Shown: piece after piece, positions 3,685 to 50,397 of the stretch
How positions within the stretch are numbered: position 1 is the stretch's first letter
How the letters are laid out: the number at the start of each line of letters is the position of its first letter
Assembly: GCF_000337555.1 (NCBI RefSeq)
Contig: NZ_AOIO01000021.1
Coordinates: forward strand, 1-50,428
Direction of reading: 5' to 3'
DNA from: Natrialba asiatica DSM 12278
GTDB taxonomy: Archaea > Halobacteriota > Halobacteria > Halobacteriales > Natrialbaceae
Length of the DNA stretch: 50,428 nucleotides
Notes under the pieces: generated by a model
Told to the model about the DNA's origin: nothing
Databases searched by the model: none
Seen by the model: only the letters and a program-made list of their open reading frames with translations
Translations under genes and position numbers: made by a program

Positions 3685-4347
3685 ATGGCAGAAAAAGATC
3701 CCACGTCGCGGCGGACGGTCCTCAAAATATCCGGTGCCGTTGGTGCAGCCGGTCTTCTCGCAGGTTGCGCGGACAGCGGTGGCGGTGGAAACGGTGGCGG
3801 CAACGGCGGCGGAAACGGGGGCGGCAACGGCGGTGGCAATGGTGGCGGCAACGGCGGCACAGATGTCAGCGAGTGGGAAGGCGTCAGCGAAATCGAGCTC
3901 ACCGGTGTGACGAGCGGATGGGAAGGGAATTCGCCGAGTCCGATCGAGGGGGAGACCAACCCCTCGCTGGTCCTCTTCGAAGGCGAGTCGTACGAAATCA
4001 CCTGGGAGAACGGCGACGGAGCCAACCACAATCTCGAAATCGTCGACGAGAACGACGAAGTCGTCGACGATCTCTCGACCGAGCAAATGAACGAGGAAGG
4101 CGAAACCCAGACGCTCGAAATCGAGGAAGTCACGAGCGAGATGGCCGAATACGTCTGTCGCCCACACGAGAACCAGATGCGCGGAACGATCGACTTACAG
4201 CAGGGTTCGGGCGGCAACGGCGGTGGAAACGGTAACGAGACCGGCAACGGTAACGAGAGCGAAAACGGCAACGAAAGTATGGAGAACGGTAACGAGAGCG
4301 AAAACGGCAACGAAAGCATGGAGAACGGCAACGAGAGTAGCGAATAA
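3685..4347 (+). CDS. Halocyanin-like cupredoxin lipoprotein with Gly/Asn repeats
   Basis: A 220-residue secreted lipoprotein. Seen: a twin-arginine signal (SRRTVLK), a hydrophobic stretch and lipobox LAGC, so it is probably exported folded by Tat and anchored by lipid outside the cell. Next comes a linker of GGGN repeats (bases about 3774-3858), then a cupredoxin-like domain with a His in ANHN and a Cys-x2-His-x3-Met cluster in YVCRPHENQM, the usual type 1 copper ligands. The tail repeats NGNES / NGNESMEN up to the stop. ATG 3685 is preferred over the in-frame GTG at 3664 because it sits just before the Tat signal and 26 bases after the TATA box. Probable role: membrane-attached electron carrier or copper binder. 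No redox partner is encoded next to it. Confidence 0.85.
   Translation: MAEKDPTSRRTVLKISGAVGAAGLLAGCADSGGGGNGGGNGGGNGGGNGGGNGGGNGGTDVSEWEGVSEIELTGVTSGWEGNSPSPIEGETNPSLVLFEGESYEITWENGDGANHNLEIVDENDEVVDDLSTEQMNEEGETQTLEIEEVTSEMAEYVCRPHENQMRGTIDLQQGSGGNGGGNGNETGNGNESENGNESMENGNESENGNESMENGNESSE
3774..3858 (+). repeat. 12-bp-period repeat coding GGGN linker
   Basis: Degenerate tandem units of about 12 bases (coding Gly-Gly-Gly-Asn, about six to seven copies) form the flexible linker between lipid anchor and copper domain. Third positions vary between copies, so the repeat is old or selected at the protein level. Confidence 0.8.
4216..4344 (+). repeat. Repeat coding the NGNES tail
   Basis: Tandem units coding NGNES and MENGNES make the last about 43 residues of the lipoprotein. 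Two near-identical 33-base blocks are visible (AGCGAAAACGGCAACGAAAG and its neighbour), a copy-number-variable type of sequence. Confidence 0.75.
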
Positions 4348-11494: not shown

Positions 11495-11623
11495 TCCTCT
11501 CGGATTCTTCGGTTCTCGGTAGTTCCGTTGATCGTGTTTCACGGGGGAACGCAACTGTCCGGTATCCTGCCGGATATCACTCGGTATGACGTGGAGACAG
11601 GGATCGCCCTTGTCGCATACGGC

Positions 11624-11642
11624 GTCCCGTTTCGGCCGGGAC
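11624..11642. other. Small hairpin GTCCCG/CGGGAC
   Basis: A 6-bp stem with a 7-base loop in the 271-base region between the divergent mvk and lipoprotein genes, just before the TATA box at 11651. It may be regulatory or chance. Confidence 0.25.
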
Positions 11643-11650
11643 ACGTTTGG

Positions 11651-11659
11651 TTATAAATA
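11651..11659 (+). promoter_or_regulatory. TATA box of the unknown lipoprotein gene
   Basis: TTATAAATA is the strongest TATA match in the window. It lies 73-81 bases before the ATG, so the transcript would carry a leader of roughly 50 bases, unlike the leaderless pattern of most genes here. Confidence 0.55.
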
Positions 11660-11686
11660 AGTTCTGGTGGCTTGCTGATCGCCACA

Positions 11687-11698
11687 GCCGGTACCGGC
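11687..11698. promoter_or_regulatory. Perfect palindrome GCCGGTACCGGC, possible operator
   Basis: A perfect 12-bp inverted repeat about 30 bases after the TATA box, at or just past the expected transcription start, where a bound repressor would block initiation. A further GCCGGC follows at about 11704. The function is inferred from position only. Confidence 0.35.
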
Positions 11699-11731
11699 GT
11701 ATATGCCGGCTTGATTCGAGGCTTGATGTAG

Positions 11732-13012
11732 ATGCAACTACGACCATCCGATCGACCCGAGGACCATCGACGACGGCGGTTGCTTCGAACCGTCGGTGCA
11801 GCGGTCACGACTGGGACAGTAATTTCGACGGCAGGCTGTCTCGCTTCACTACCGATGCTCGGCCAGCAGATACGATACGCGGACGTCGACGTTCCGAATT
11901 CCGGCGAGCCGATCTACCGGGAATGGATCCCGGCAGCGTCGGCGCTCGACGGCAGCAACGACAACTGGGCGAACGTGATGTATGCGACGCCCGGTGAGAT
12001 GGGCGAGTCCGTCATCGGCGCTCGATACAGCATGACGGACGCGCTTTTGCGAGCGCAGATGGACTATCTCGGCGTCGGGTACGAAAACTACGAACGCGTC
12101 GTCGGTACCGGCCCGGTAATTATCGGACTCGGATCGTTTACTGCGGCGACCGTTCGCGAGACGATCCTCGAGAGCGGCTACGAGCGTCTCGGTTCCTACG
12201 AAGGATACGACTGCTTCGAACGAACCGATCTCACCCGCGGTGTCGCCGTTCGTGATGGCGTCATAATTTTTCGCCGCCGAAAGAACGACGGCGGCTCGCT
12301 CGACGTAGTCGACCTCGAGACGGCTATCGATGCGGGTGCTGGCCGAATCGAACGACACTACGAGGCTGACGACCGGTTCGAGCGACTCACTCGAGCAGCG
12401 GGCTCTCGCCCGGAACTACAGGTTATGCGGAGTAAGAGCCTTCTCAACGGCGATCTTGTCGATAAATTCGACGTTCGATGGTCGTCGATGGGGTACACCT
12501 TCGACGAGGACAGAATCTATCACCAATTCGTCCACGTCTGCGGGGAAGAGCCGTCACTCTCCGAACGGCGCGTCAAAGCCGTCCTCGAACATGACAATCG
12601 AGCCCTCGACGCGTATGCGGTGGACGTGACGATCGACGACCCGATTCTGCAGATCGACATGAGCGAATCACACGCCGCCGCTCGCGACCGATCGTCGTCC
12701 GATGGCGTAACGTACCCACAGATTACGTGGGGTGTCCGGACGGTGGCCGATGGCGAACAGATCGAACTCTCCCACGATGGCGGTGACGCCGTCGACGCAA
12801 ACCGCCTCACCGTCACGTACGGTGCGAATTTCGACACCGAACCGAAACCCGATCGGCAGTTCGCAGACGAGTTCGAAACCGTCGAATCGGGTGCGTCCCT
12901 GACACTCGATATTACCGATCGTCCACAGGAGGTGTCGGTAACGGTGGGCTATCGCCCTCGTGAGTCGAGTTCGCTCACAGTCCTCTTTCGAGTCGATCCG
13001 TCGTTCGTATGA
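11732..13012 (+). CDS. Unknown Tat-type lipoprotein
   Basis: A 426-residue protein I do not recognise. Seen: an Arg-rich N-terminus (DHRRRRLLRTVGAAV) resembling a Tat signal, then a lipobox STAGC, so probably a lipid-anchored exported protein. The mature part is acidic and has no membrane helix. It has an early YREWIPAAS segment, a central stretch around residues 120-220 built like an alternating alpha/beta domain (ETILESGYERLGSYEGYDCFER), and a C-terminal region of beta-strand character (about residues 330-426). The early 'x-REWIPA' and 'GYDCFE' style resembles other haloarchaeal lipoproteins of unknown role, from memory only. It is followed 156 bases later by a regulator/small-membrane-protein pair. 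Confidence 0.7.
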   Translation: MQLRPSDRPEDHRRRRLLRTVGAAVTTGTVISTAGCLASLPMLGQQIRYADVDVPNSGEPIYREWIPAASALDGSNDNWANVMYATPGEMGESVIGARYSMTDALLRAQMDYLGVGYENYERVVGTGPVIIGLGSFTAATVRETILESGYERLGSYEGYDCFERTDLTRGVAVRDGVIIFRRRKNDGGSLDVVDLETAIDAGAGRIERHYEADDRFERLTRAAGSRPELQVMRSKSLLNGDLVDKFDVRWSSMGYTFDEDRIYHQFVHVCGEEPSLSERRVKAVLEHDNRALDAYAVDVTIDDPILQIDMSESHAAARDRSSSDGVTYPQITWGVRTVADGEQIELSHDGGDAVDANRLTVTYGANFDTEPKPDRQFADEFETVESGASLTLDITDRPQEVSVTVGYRPRESSSLTVLFRVDPSFV

Positions 13013-13168
13013 GGTGCAAGCACAACAGGTGATTCAGTTGTGTCTCGCACGTCACCGGTCGCGAGCAGCCACTGTCCCTCGACCGGCCGATCCGAACGAT
13101 TCCGGGCGCGCTATCATCGTCGCTCGTCGTTCGAAGCGACTATCTATCAACTACCGAACGTACTACCC

Positions 13169-13513
13169 GTGAGCGAGGACCTGCCGCTCGATACCGTCGT
13201 TGCGCTCCTCGATGACGAGTACGCTCGTTCGATCCTCACAGCGACACGCACCGAAGCCATGTCCGCCAACGAACTGACCGACCACTGTGACGCCTCGCTC
13301 TCGACTATCTGTCGCCGCCTGGAGCAGCTCGAAGCGGCGAATCTCGTTCGCGAGCGCACCCGGCCGCGCGCCGACGGACACCACGACACGATCTACGTTG
13401 CGACCTTAGAGGAGTTCCGGCTTCGACTCGACGATGAGGGATTTACGTTCAATCTTCGCTACCGCGACGAAGATGCCGCCGATCGGCTCAAACGACTGTG
13501 GGGTGACCTCTAA
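13169..13513 (+). CDS. Winged-helix transcriptional regulator
   Basis: A 114-residue DNA-binding protein with one ArsR-like winged helix. Seen: YARSILTATRTEAMSANELT leading into a helix-turn-helix (DHCDASLSTICRRLEQLEAA) and a wing with an Arg-rich turn. No metal-binding cysteine pair. GTG 13169 is chosen because the domain starts 13 residues later and the sequence before it is basic and unlike the family. Its TAA overlaps the ATG of the next gene by one base. Such a regulator paired with a four-helix mini membrane protein is a recurrent haloarchaeal arrangement; the signal it senses is unknown. Confidence 0.85.
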   Translation: MSEDLPLDTVVALLDDEYARSILTATRTEAMSANELTDHCDASLSTICRRLEQLEAANLVRERTRPRADGHHDTIYVATLEEFRLRLDDEGFTFNLRYRDEDAADRLKRLWGDL

Positions 13514-13824
13514 TGCTTCCCGGCGTTCGTCCGATCGAACTCGCCGTTGGAGCGCTCGCTGCCGGTGCAACCCTCCTCGGACTGTACATCGGGTACCAGG
13601 CGTTCCGTGCCTGGGGCCGCCACCGTGACCCATCGATGCGGTATCTCGCCCTCGGCTTGCTCCTCCTGACGGTCGGGACGTATTCGATGTCGTTCGTCGG
13701 GACCGTCCTCATCAACTTGCGGCTTCTCTCGCTACCGCAGCAGGACTGGTTCTGGCTCGCCGTTCACACCGCCCAATTTACTGGCCTGGCACTGATCGCC
13801 TACGCGCTCCATCGCCGCCCCTGA
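13513..13824 (+). CDS. Small membrane protein paired with the regulator (DUF7521-like)
   Basis: 103 residues with three or four membrane segments (about residues 8-28, 42-65, 75-98). Seen: short basic loops (RAWGRHRDPSMR) and a basic C-terminus (HRRP), so that end is probably cytoplasmic. It starts inside the stop codon of the winged-helix gene, so the two are translationally coupled. I assign it from memory to the haloarchaeal family labelled DUF7521; its function is unknown. A membrane sensor for the partner regulator is a fair guess only. Confidence 0.75.
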   Translation: MLPGVRPIELAVGALAAGATLLGLYIGYQAFRAWGRHRDPSMRYLALGLLLLTVGTYSMSFVGTVLINLRLLSLPQQDWFWLAVHTAQFTGLALIAYALHRRP

Positions 13825-13856
13825 TCCCCGCGACGCTCGACGCCACCGCCGTCCTG

Positions 13857-13866
13857 ATAATTTAAG
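13857..13866 (+). promoter_or_regulatory. TATA box of thiR
   Basis: ATAATTTAAG is centred about 29 bases before the ATG at 13891, consistent with a leaderless transcript. Confidence 0.55.
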
Positions 13867-15000: not shown

Positions 15001-16248
15001 ATGGATTTCGTTATTACGATTCAACACGCGGCGAACGTCCACTTCTTCAAGCACGCCATCGCTGAACTCGAGGCTGCAGGGCACAACGTGTACGTGTTCG
15101 CTCGCGAGAAGGGGGTTACGGGAGAACTGCTCGACGCGTACGACATCGATCACGAACTCCTCTGTGACGAACCGAGCGGCTGGCTCGAATTGGGCGTGAC
15201 GCAACTGTACTACGAGGCGCGACTGCTGCGGCGAGCGCACGCGATCGACCCGGACTACATCATCACCAGTCACGGCATCGCCGCCACTCACGTCGCGACG
15301 CTGGTCGGTGCGGAGAGCCACGTCTACATCGACACCGAAACGGCGATCAACGGCGGCAATCGGCTCACGATCCCGTTCACCGACGCGCTCTACACGCCGA
15401 ACAGTTTCCGCGAATCCTACGGCGACGCACACGTCGACTATCCCGGCTACCACGAACTGGCCTACCTGCATCCCGACCGATTCGAACCGGACCCGGACCT
15501 GCTACGGCGGTACGGCGTCGACCCGCACGAGCAATACGCCGTCCTGCGCGTCGGCGCGTGGAACGGCAACCACGACATCGGCAAAGCGGGCATCTCGACC
15601 GTGGGCCGACGCACGATCATCGACGAACTCGCCGCCGCCGGTCGCGTCTACGTCTCCGACGAAGGCGACGGCCCGATCCCGAGCGGGGCCGACCCGCTTC
15701 CCGTCCCACCGGAAGCCTTCCACCATCTACTCGCGTTCGCCGACCTCGTCGTCGGCGAAGTCGCGACGACGACGCTCGAGGCCGGCCTCCTCGGGACGCC
15801 GACCGTCCGCATCAGTCCGTTCGCAGGGTCGACCGAGATGGGCAAGTTCCGCGAACTCGAAGCGTACGGCCTCGTTCGCTCCTTCCACACCGATTCCGAA
15901 CGGGAAGCAATCGACGAACTGAAACGGCTCGTTCGCGATCCACACACCGCAACAATCTGGGCAAATAGACGAGCAGCACTGCTCGAAACGAAGGTCGACG
16001 TGACTCAGTACATCCTCAGCCAACTACTCGAGGACGTTCCCGAACCGACGCCGACCGGCCGAGATCCGGATTCGAACCTGACCGTTCCGAACTCCTCCGG
16101 CCCCGGTCCGGGCTCGACCCCTAAACCAGGGCTGTCGCTTTCGAAGCCGACTCCGCGTCCGAACTCGAATCGGAACCGGCACCAGAATCAAAACCAAAAT
16201 CAAAACCAAAACCAAATCCACACCCAGAACCGAAACCGGCGACGCTAA
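15001..16248 (+). CDS. DUF354 family protein with a repeat-expanded tail
   Basis: A 415-residue protein. Residues 1-345 match the DUF354 family, which looks like a GT-B glycosyltransferase or UDP-GlcNAc 2-epimerase fold: N-terminal MDFVITIQHAANVHFFK, a TSHGIAATHVA segment, and a late donor-site-like stretch GEVATTTLEAGLLGTPTVR. Membership suggests work on cell-surface glycans, supported by the glycosyltransferase 24 bases downstream. The last about 70 residues are a Pro/Ser linker then NRNRHQNQNQNQNQNQ and a basic end, unlike the acidic proteome. In the next frame the same DNA from about 16123 reads as acidic Pro/Glu/Ser/Lys sequence, hinting at a frameshift or slippage in the tail. ATG 15001 is used. 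Confidence 0.82.
   Translation: MDFVITIQHAANVHFFKHAIAELEAAGHNVYVFAREKGVTGELLDAYDIDHELLCDEPSGWLELGVTQLYYEARLLRRAHAIDPDYIITSHGIAATHVATLVGAESHVYIDTETAINGGNRLTIPFTDALYTPNSFRESYGDAHVDYPGYHELAYLHPDRFEPDPDLLRRYGVDPHEQYAVLRVGAWNGNHDIGKAGISTVGRRTIIDELAAAGRVYVSDEGDGPIPSGADPLPVPPEAFHHLLAFADLVVGEVATTTLEAGLLGTPTVRISPFAGSTEMGKFRELEAYGLVRSFHTDSEREAIDELKRLVRDPHTATIWANRRAALLETKVDVTQYILSQLLEDVPEPTPTGRDPDSNLTVPNSSGPGPGSTPKPGLSLSKPTPRPNSNRNRHQNQNQNQNQNQIHTQNRNRRR
16179..16246 (+). repeat. Six-base-period CAAAAC/CAAAAT tract in the DUF354 gene
   Basis: Tandem CAAAAC and CAAAAT hexamers code for the (QN)n tail. The run is A-rich inside a G+C-rich gene, a composition break that favours slippage. Confidence 0.8.
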
Positions 16249-16272
16249 CAGAGACTCCACAACACCCACCGC

Positions 16273-17316
16273 ATGACCCGAATCCTGAGTCTCACGACGA
16301 CCGCCTGGCGCAGTTTCTACCAGAGTCAGATGGCAGCCCTCGAGCACGCAGACATCGAGTTCACGACTCTCCCCGTCCCGGGCGAACACCGCGCGCTCGA
16401 AGACGATGTCCAGCGGCGCACGCCCGCCGACTACGTCAGATACCTCCCGCAGGTGCTCCGCGAGGCCCGCGGCGAGTACGACGTCGTTCACGCTAACTAC
16501 GGACTGACGGCACCCTTCGCTGTTGCAGCCTCGATGCTGCCGACCATCGATCTGCCGGTCGTCTGCACGCTTTGGGGTGGCGAGTATCGCAACAACCAGT
16601 TCGAACCGCTGATCAGACGCGCCACGGCGCACGCCGACCGCGTCATCGTCCCCTCGAAGGCGATGGCCGACCGCGTCGACCGCCCCTGCGACGTGATCCC
16701 GTTCCCAGTCGACACGGATCTTTTCCGACCGATTCCGACGGCGACCGCTCGCGAACACGTTGGCTGGGACTCCACGGAAACCAACGCCGAAACTGAAGCC
16801 AAACCCAAAGCCGAAACCAACACTCAAACTCAACCCCAAACCGAACGGGAACGAATCGTCCTCTTTCCGTACGCGCCCTCGCGCGACGAGAAGAACTATC
16901 CCCTGGCGAAACGCGTGGTCGACGATCTCCGCGATGAACTCGACTATCCAATCAGCCTTCGCACCGTCGCCAACCAGCCGTACGAGGAGATGCCCTACTA
17001 CCTGAACGCCGCCGACGCCGTCCTGCTCACGTCGCGCTTCGAGAGCGGGCCGATGACGATCAAGGAAGCAACCGCCTGCAATACCCCCGTCGTCTCGCGC
17101 GACGTTGGCTTCGCTCGCGAAGTACTCACAGACGTGCCGAACGCAGCCGTCGCCTCCGACGACGCCGCCCTCCGAACGCACCTGGCAGCCCTCCTCGAAA
17201 CCGGCGAGTCAGCCGACGGCCGCGCGGCGTTTACGGACTACACCGTCGAGACGATGGGATCTCGACTCCGAACCGTCTACGCGCAGTGTCTTCGCGAGAC
17301 GGAGGCCGCCCAGTAG
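16273..17316 (+). CDS. Glycosyltransferase family 4-like protein
   Basis: A 347-residue GT-B glycosyltransferase. Seen: N-terminal acceptor domain with DVVHANYGLTAPFAVA and VVCTLWGGEYR, then a donor domain beginning at VLFPYAPSRDEKNYPLA and ending with the family's LTSRFESGPMTIKEATACNTPVV motif, in which the Glu residues contact the sugar nucleotide. No membrane helix. Between the domains, near residues 168-195, lies an insertion of Thr/Glu/Lys/Gln repeats (ETNAETEAKPKAETNTQTQ) absent from the fold. Preceded by the DUF354 gene with 24 bases between, so one operon. Sugar and acceptor unknown; a role in S-layer or exopolysaccharide glycosylation is likely. Confidence 0.88.
   Translation: MTRILSLTTTAWRSFYQSQMAALEHADIEFTTLPVPGEHRALEDDVQRRTPADYVRYLPQVLREARGEYDVVHANYGLTAPFAVAASMLPTIDLPVVCTLWGGEYRNNQFEPLIRRATAHADRVIVPSKAMADRVDRPCDVIPFPVDTDLFRPIPTATAREHVGWDSTETNAETEAKPKAETNTQTQPQTERERIVLFPYAPSRDEKNYPLAKRVVDDLRDELDYPISLRTVANQPYEEMPYYLNAADAVLLTSRFESGPMTIKEATACNTPVVSRDVGFAREVLTDVPNAAVASDDAALRTHLAALLETGESADGRAAFTDYTVETMGSRLRTVYAQCLRETEAAQ
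16776..16846 (+). repeat. Six-base-period GAAACC/CAAACT tract in the glycosyltransferase gene
   Basis: Degenerate hexamers code for the interdomain Thr/Glu/Lys/Gln insertion. The period and A/C composition match the tract 600 bases upstream. Confidence 0.75.
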
Positions 17317-49732: not shown

Positions 49733-49920
49733 GATCGGTCGGGGCTTTCGCCGTTAGCCGACCTAGTCACCCCACCGGGTAGTGCGTTTCGCCTTCGATC
49801 CCCGCAGACGGCTGTACGCGCCGACTCTCACCCGAACGAGTTCGGATATGCTGCCAAAAGCAAGTTGTCGAACACTTGCGGTTCGTCGTTCGTCGTTCGT
49901 CGCTCGTCGCTCGTCGTGCG
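49733..49920. other. Spacer with a seven-base tandem repeat
   Basis: 188 bases between the SafE gene and the HMG-CoA synthase stop. It holds the seven-base repeat listed separately and no gene. Confidence 0.5.
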
Positions 49921-49922
49921 TC
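49881..49922. repeat. Seven-base tandem repeat GTTCGTC
   Basis: Six units: GTTCGTC three times, GCTCGTC twice, then GTGCGTC. The last unit touches the stop codon of the HMG-CoA synthase gene. The period of seven is not a multiple of three, so it is not a coding repeat; copy number could change freely. Confidence 0.85.
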
Positions 49923-50397
49923 AGTCGACGTACCGATACTGTCGTTCGCCCATCCGGCCCCAGCCGTCGAAGACGAACTCCTCGTCGGGCGTCGTGAACT
50001 CCTCGACGTCGACGTCCATCTCGTGGTTGTGGGCGTCGTGAACGTCCTCGTAATCCGCCCAGCTCAGGTCGTAGCGGGCCGCAAGCTGTTCGTCCACGTT
50101 TAACGCCTCGATCTCGTCCTTCCAACCGTCACGGACGGTTTCGGTGTGAATTTCGGCCTGCGCACCGCTTCCGTACGAGCCGATGAGCAGCGTCTCACCG
50201 GTTAGGTCGCGGCCGTCCTCGAGTGCTGACTTGAGCGCGCTCGCGCGGGCGACGTGAACGGAACCGGTGTACCAGTTGCCGACCTCGCGGGAGATCGACA
50301 GCGTCGGATCGATCATCTCCGCGTACCACTCCTGGTAGCGGTCGGTTTCCTTGAGTTCGTCCATGTACTCCCGCAGGGCCTCGCGGTAGTCCTCGTC
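49921..50397 (-). CDS. HMG-CoA synthase, N-terminal part missing
   Basis: The last 158 residues of 3-hydroxy-3-methylglutaryl-CoA synthase, which condenses acetyl-CoA with acetoacetyl-CoA to make the mevalonate precursor. Seen: DPTLSISREVGNWYTGSVHV, the family's GN-x-YTGS motif, GETLLIGSYGSGAQAE with the conserved GSGA loop, and a C-terminal end NHEMDVDVEEFTTPDEEF. The enzyme is normally about 440-460 residues. Real sequence ends at 50397; codons beyond it read MYKRQ but come from the library adapter, so the true upstream part is missing from the assembly. Confidence 0.93.
   Translation of the reverse strand, partial: DEDYREALREYMDELKETDRYQEWYAEMIDPTLSISREVGNWYTGSVHVARASALKSALEDGRDLTGETLLIGSYGSGAQAEIHTETVRDGWKDEIEALNVDEQLAARYDLSWADYEDVHDAHNHEMDVDVEEFTTPDEEFVFDGWGRMGERQYRYVD

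Follow-up and report, generated by a model that had tools for sequence, protein, structure and literature searches.

Worn hexamer tracts in a DUF354-glycosyltransferase gene pair of Natrialba, probably left by tandem duplication across the genus

Short repeats have been described in Natrialba before. In N. magadii, simple sequence repeats were reported to encode peptide repeats (PMC3403918, available portion). The tracts described here resemble them, as in-frame protein repeats in the same genus, but the subject occupies one sentence of that portion, without the present genes or intergenic tracts. N. magadii also tops the Archaea in low-complexity regions (LCRs), for which acidic adaptation was offered as the reason (PMC6821194, in the sections available to us). 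Both of our tracts are likewise low-complexity segments in Natrialba proteins; however, they are not acid-rich and they have counterparts between genes. Short satellites of Halobacteria, with N. magadii listed among the species, have repeat lengths divisible by three and were explained as parts of genes (PMC6749651, accessible text). Our tracts too are short in-frame tandem repeats in Halobacteria, but worn hexamers escape that survey because it requires four copies of a decamer. A large survey saw on average no expansion of STRs in Archaea (PMC12699852). We found no publication on intergenic tracts of 6- or 7-base units in Natrialba in the literature searched, which left subscription journals mostly outside.

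In the phase-variable contingency repeats of bacteria, which lie in the coding DNA of sugar-transfer genes, a unit that in most cases shifts the reading frame is repeated perfectly many times. Our tracts share with them the short tandem units and the location in coding DNA of sugar-transfer genes, but they are worn, in frame, and known from one genome per species. Instead of a long perfect run, the longest runs reach 2.67 copies in tract 1 and 2.00 in tract 2, and a change in copy number would not switch either gene, the 6-base unit being in frame in both. Since at most 2.67 perfect copies are present, the tracts appear too worn for fast switching by the general threshold for such slippage.

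The window, that is, the whole stretch of DNA analysed, comprises 50,428 nucleotides from Natrialba asiatica DSM 12278. The features discussed below are collected in Table 1.

Table 1. Coordinates of the gene pair, its spacer and its two repeat tracts in the window
Feature	Position	Strand	Description
DUF354-family gene, 415 aa	15001..16248	+	Pfam PF04007, E=1e-8; 18 orthologues; core residues ~1-345 conserved, followed by a variable tail
Spacer, DUF354 stop to glycosyltransferase start	16249..16272	+	24 bases
GT4-type, GT-B fold glycosyltransferase gene, 347 aa	16273..17316	+	Pfam Glycos_transf_1 and Glyco_trans_4_4
Tract 1, A/C-rich degenerate hexamer tract	16168..16245	+	Encodes ..NRNRHQNQNQNQNQNQIHTQNRNRRR; TRF core 16181-16237
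Tract 2, A/C-rich hexamer-derived insert	about 16777..16842	+	Encodes about STETNAETEAKPKAETNTQTQPQT; 72 bases in alignment; linker between the two GT-B domains

The two genes are co-oriented and 24 bases apart. The DUF354 protein scores 35.1 bits against PF04007, whose curated cut-off is 22, and the glycosyltransferase scores 49.1 bits with its GT4-type Pfam profile (cut-off 26.4), while NCBIfam names neither protein above its cut-offs. A model of the glycosyltransferase built from nine sequences has a mean pLDDT of 81.9, except at residues 38-47 and 169-190, and its top PDB match, MshA (3c4q, TM 0.74), supports a GT-B fold. The DUF354 model is weak (pLDDT 61.6, with a disordered tail) and its top match, the UDP-GlcNAc 2-epimerase 1f6d, reaches only TM 0.48, so that the class of chemistry, possibly like that of this epimerase, is only a lead. 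Near the pair are genes for ThiN-domain, AA kinase, GHMP kinase, HTH, ribosomal S2, enolase and ribosomal S9 proteins, and one without a match; judged from their sequences, those for the ThiN-domain protein, GHMP kinase, the ribosomal proteins S2 and S9, and enolase make these housekeeping surroundings. Neither a glycan cluster nor export genes were found among the neighbours tested, which does not bear out the shared surface-glycan operon proposed in the preliminary description. A promoter or terminator role for the tracts was also considered: a simple scan, whose models leave archaeal promoters outside, returned hardly more than chance would give, with no promoter-like and five terminator-like signals, against 3.1 in shuffles.

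The same description had placed A/C-rich hexamer tracts at 16179-16846 and derived from them both the DUF354 tail and an interdomain insert of the glycosyltransferase. These coordinates are correct, and the derivation is upheld by TRF, by shuffles of lag-6 matches and by the alignment of orthologues. Tract 1 has a GC content of 0.40, against 0.65 for the whole window, and an A+C content of 0.895; its TRF core has period 6, with 9.5 copies and a 76% match. Its 51 lag-6 matches out of 72 were equalled by no codon shuffle and no base shuffle of the tract (20000 of each), and the best 30-base lag-6 score in the DUF354 gene by 0 of 5000 codon shuffles of the whole gene. This tract encodes the final ~26 residues of the protein; they are of the N/Q/R type, and the repeat itself contains no acidic residue. 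Disorder is predicted at residues 331-403, 407-411 and 413-415, where the model's pLDDT falls below 50.

Tract 2 is more worn than tract 1. TRF reports it at 16777-16820 with period 12 (two hexamers) and 3.7 copies, plus a weaker array at 16814-16842; its GC content is 0.50, and its lag-6 matches are 43 of 78 (codon-shuffle P=0.00015). When codons were shuffled across the whole gene, 37 of 5000 shuffles equalled the gene's best 30-base lag-6 score, and the tract lies under the threshold of the lag-6 scan that we applied to the genome sample. The insert, of ~24 residues of the T/E/K/P/Q type, separates the two halves of the glycosyltransferase; it corresponds to residues 169-190 (pLDDT <50, predicted disordered), flanked by a helix at 156-163 and a strand at 194-198. 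In both tracts the tandem period exceeds what base or codon composition would give, and these lag-6 shuffles rule out chance A/C richness without a real period. The frame is kept in both genes, as the preliminary description had held.

We compared the pair with its orthologues in 18 of 125 genomes of the family, those whose DUF354 matches rank highest after the window's own (E 2e-194 to 3e-142). The glycosyltransferase gene adjoins DUF354 in all 18, and in none of them does it carry the tract 2 insert: among the 19 pairs, the window alone has it. A conserved insertion is thus ruled out. In the DNA alignment, four Natrialba orthologues (G002, G003, G004 and G005) are short of 72 bases at the insert site. 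The same four have another hexamer tract, GACTCC-like and encoding S-D repeats, ~90 bases downstream, which is absent from the window; compared with the window, it adds 6 bases in G002, 12 in G003, 18 in G005 and 24 in G004. Lineage-specific presence is therefore seen in the absence of the insert, and whole-unit length differences in this 6-base ladder, which belongs to a neighbouring site, the window tracts having no homologous tract to measure. Neither the sequence nor the length of the DUF354 tail is constant from pair to pair. Tract 1 aligns to the stop codon and spacer of the DUF354 genes of G002, G003 and G004, an alignment suggesting that the DUF354 reading frame was lengthened through the tract in the window lineage.

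In the four other Natrialba, the first aligned codon of the glycosyltransferase follows the DUF354 stop at a distance of 22 to 141 bases. Outside the genus, 12 of 14 pairs have -4 to 14 bases there; the remaining two are G023, with a split DUF354 match, and G032, on a contig with N letters. The 141-base spacer, in G005 (L147), is packed with CACACATACCACC-like repeats and is far longer than those of other species. The G023 orthologue (L138) is matched as two separate pieces, possibly because of a frame break. Haloterrigena salina (L143/L126) shows N letters and a repeated gene fragment, possibly an assembly fault.

Similar tracts occur well beyond this locus. A search of the window genome with an A/C-rich pattern gave 26 matches against 9 for the reversed pattern, overlaps being counted separately, and nine matched places elsewhere in that genome fall partly inside and partly outside plausible genes. 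A wider scan covered samples of seven Natrialba genomes, 1,090 kb in all with the window counted in, and 560 kb from other genera of the family, made up of 28 stretches out of 25 genomes. It looked for 30-base windows in which 22 or more positions matched at the lag in question, and genes were called with a simple codon model of our own, on which the split between coding and intergenic DNA depends. In Natrialba, lag 6 yields 78 tracts in 851 kb of coding DNA, where codon shuffles yield about 5, and 19 in 239 kb of intergenic DNA, where shuffles yield none. Lag 7 yields 14 intergenic tracts and 3 coding ones in the same amounts of DNA, and lags 1 to 5 yield four intergenic tracts altogether. 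In the other genera, 19 coding tracts of period 6 were found in 439 kb (4.8 in shuffles), one intergenic tract of period 6 and none of period 7 in 121 kb; lag 7 gave none in coding DNA either. The intergenic difference between Natrialba and the other genera has a binomial P of 0.003 for period 6 and again for period 7, on small counts that are not independent, since they include tracts orthologous to one another (G003 L200, G005 L202); at lag 9 it is unconvincing (P=0.057). No plausible ORF covers 17 of the 19 intergenic tracts of period 6 and 10 of the 14 of period 7.

The tracts within genes stand out in the frame that they use and in how often their length changes. The frame in use is more hydrophilic than the alternative ones (mean -1.50 against -0.43, P=4.6e-8) in the 75 of 78 coding period-6 tracts that were readable, and D and E make up 35% of the residues encoded by the coding period-6 tracts of Natrialba. 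Nine period-6 tracts lie in the pieces of the window genome that we compared with its two nearest sister genomes, G001 and G006. The ninth, the DUF354 tail, is deleted in the sisters; of the eight that are measurable in at least one, four shift by multiples of six (-6, -6, -18 and +12), one shifts by -2 in a single sister, and three are unchanged. Coding tracts of period 6 or 9 changed length in 5 of 10 cases, against 31 of 495 random coding segments, and in 5 of 12, against 36 of 681, counts that include one -2 value and two overlapping tracts. Random intergenic segments also often change length (40 of 91 and 41 of 135), so that only the coding comparison is informative. Copy changes had been expected to alter protein length, and whole-unit steps of this kind, like the ladder described above, are indeed found elsewhere in the genus; frequent slippage at the two window tracts themselves is not supported.

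Both sisters are colinear with the window at ~95% identity and have lost the gene pair, by deletions that differ: in G001 the deletion joins window ~14901 to ~17117, in G006 ~15112 to ~17292, so that one genome retains the end of the glycosyltransferase gene and the other the beginning of DUF354. The joins show short similarity only. A second DUF354-glycosyltransferase pair, with about 46-48% identity, is kept in the window genome and in both sisters. From these comparisons, the pair at our locus is dispensable to its closest relatives. Purifying selection acts on the cores of both proteins in the window, with dN/dS values of 0.13-0.15 for DUF354 and 0.18-0.23 for the glycosyltransferase, similar to other pairs; a pseudogene pair is unsupported, both frames being intact. 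A region of ~2.3 kb at 11512-13861, with two or three ORFs, is also missing from the colinear regions of G001 and G006.

Do the tracts mark a pair that is being lost? Its independent deletion in each of the two nearest relatives and the other pair present in all three genomes would suit an early stage of loss, with the tracts as a sign of relaxed selection in the window lineage. Yet the frames are intact, dN/dS is like that of other pairs, and the window branch is of ordinary length in both trees (which left out G023, matched in two pieces, and G032, with its N letters). We consider such early decay unlikely, although it is compatible with the explanation that we favour below. The preliminary description had proposed instead that copy changes tune the lengths of the enzymes, and hence the cell-surface glycan, among strains or cultures. 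Hexamers do preserve the frame, the same glycosyltransferase shows a ladder of lengths in four species, and the position of the insert, between the GT-B domains, is one at which length could make a difference. The degenerate copies, too few by the usual threshold for frequent slippage, the absence of the genes from both sister species, the housekeeping neighbours without a glycan cluster among those tested, and the like tracts between genes all argue against this proposal, which we regard as very improbable.

A different adaptive reading, made for N. magadii in the available sections of PMC6821194, is that hydrophilic low-complexity segments are retained because they aid proteins in saturated salt. 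It draws on the 39% acidic residues reported there for N. magadii LCRs, on the D and E content of our coding tracts, and on the more hydrophilic frames that they use. The residues of the present tracts (N/Q/R and T/E/K/P/Q, tract 1 having a repeat without any acidic residue) do not suit an acid-rich halophilic loop, however; intergenic tracts are about as dense as coding ones; and fewer intergenic tracts are found in the family's other genera, although these are haloarchaea as well. Salt adaptation seems to us unlikely for this locus. The period-6 densities, 0.092 per kb in coding and 0.079 per kb in intergenic DNA, are near enough to equal that some positive selection on these tracts within genes may still have acted.

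The explanation that we favour, and consider probable, is that both tracts are degenerate coding microsatellites, produced by tandem duplication across the genus and kept through frame and protein tolerance. Small duplications of 6 or 7 bases would arise throughout Natrialba genomes, within and between genes, most likely by replication slippage. Inside genes, 7-base units would be purged because they shift the frame, and 6-base units would persist where the encoded dipeptide repeat is hydrophilic and falls at a disordered place; here, they would have survived at the C-terminal tail and in the interdomain linker of two dispensable, putative sugar-nucleotide enzymes, to be worn down later by point mutation. 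The period of the tracts, their lineage-specific presence, the stepwise differences between species at other tracts, the intergenic occurrence and the loss of the pair in the sisters are observed parts of this account.

The two tracts taken alone are ordinary, and it is the wider pattern of the genus, rather than the locus, that is worth following. That a mutational process at the level of the genus duplicates 6 or 7 bases everywhere, and that the record LCRs of Natrialba are mostly its frame-filtered by-product and not salt adaptation, is a more tentative idea, to which we give slightly less than an even chance. The pattern makes a published claim testable, by setting salt adaptation against mutational by-product as the source of Natrialba LCRs: periods 6 and 7 between genes, with period 7 nearly absent from genes, is what a frame-filtered mutational origin predicts.

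The window contains other arrays as well. A GTTCGTC-like heptamer array of ~6 copies lies at 49872-49930, outside called genes although within an ORF of 76 codons whose coding score is weak, and is 5 bases longer in both sisters. Two longer arrays are in frame: one at 3779-3859, of G/N-rich 12- and 24-mers, is shorter in the sisters, by 9 and 12 bases, and the other, at 4227-4339, is built on an N/E-rich 39-mer.
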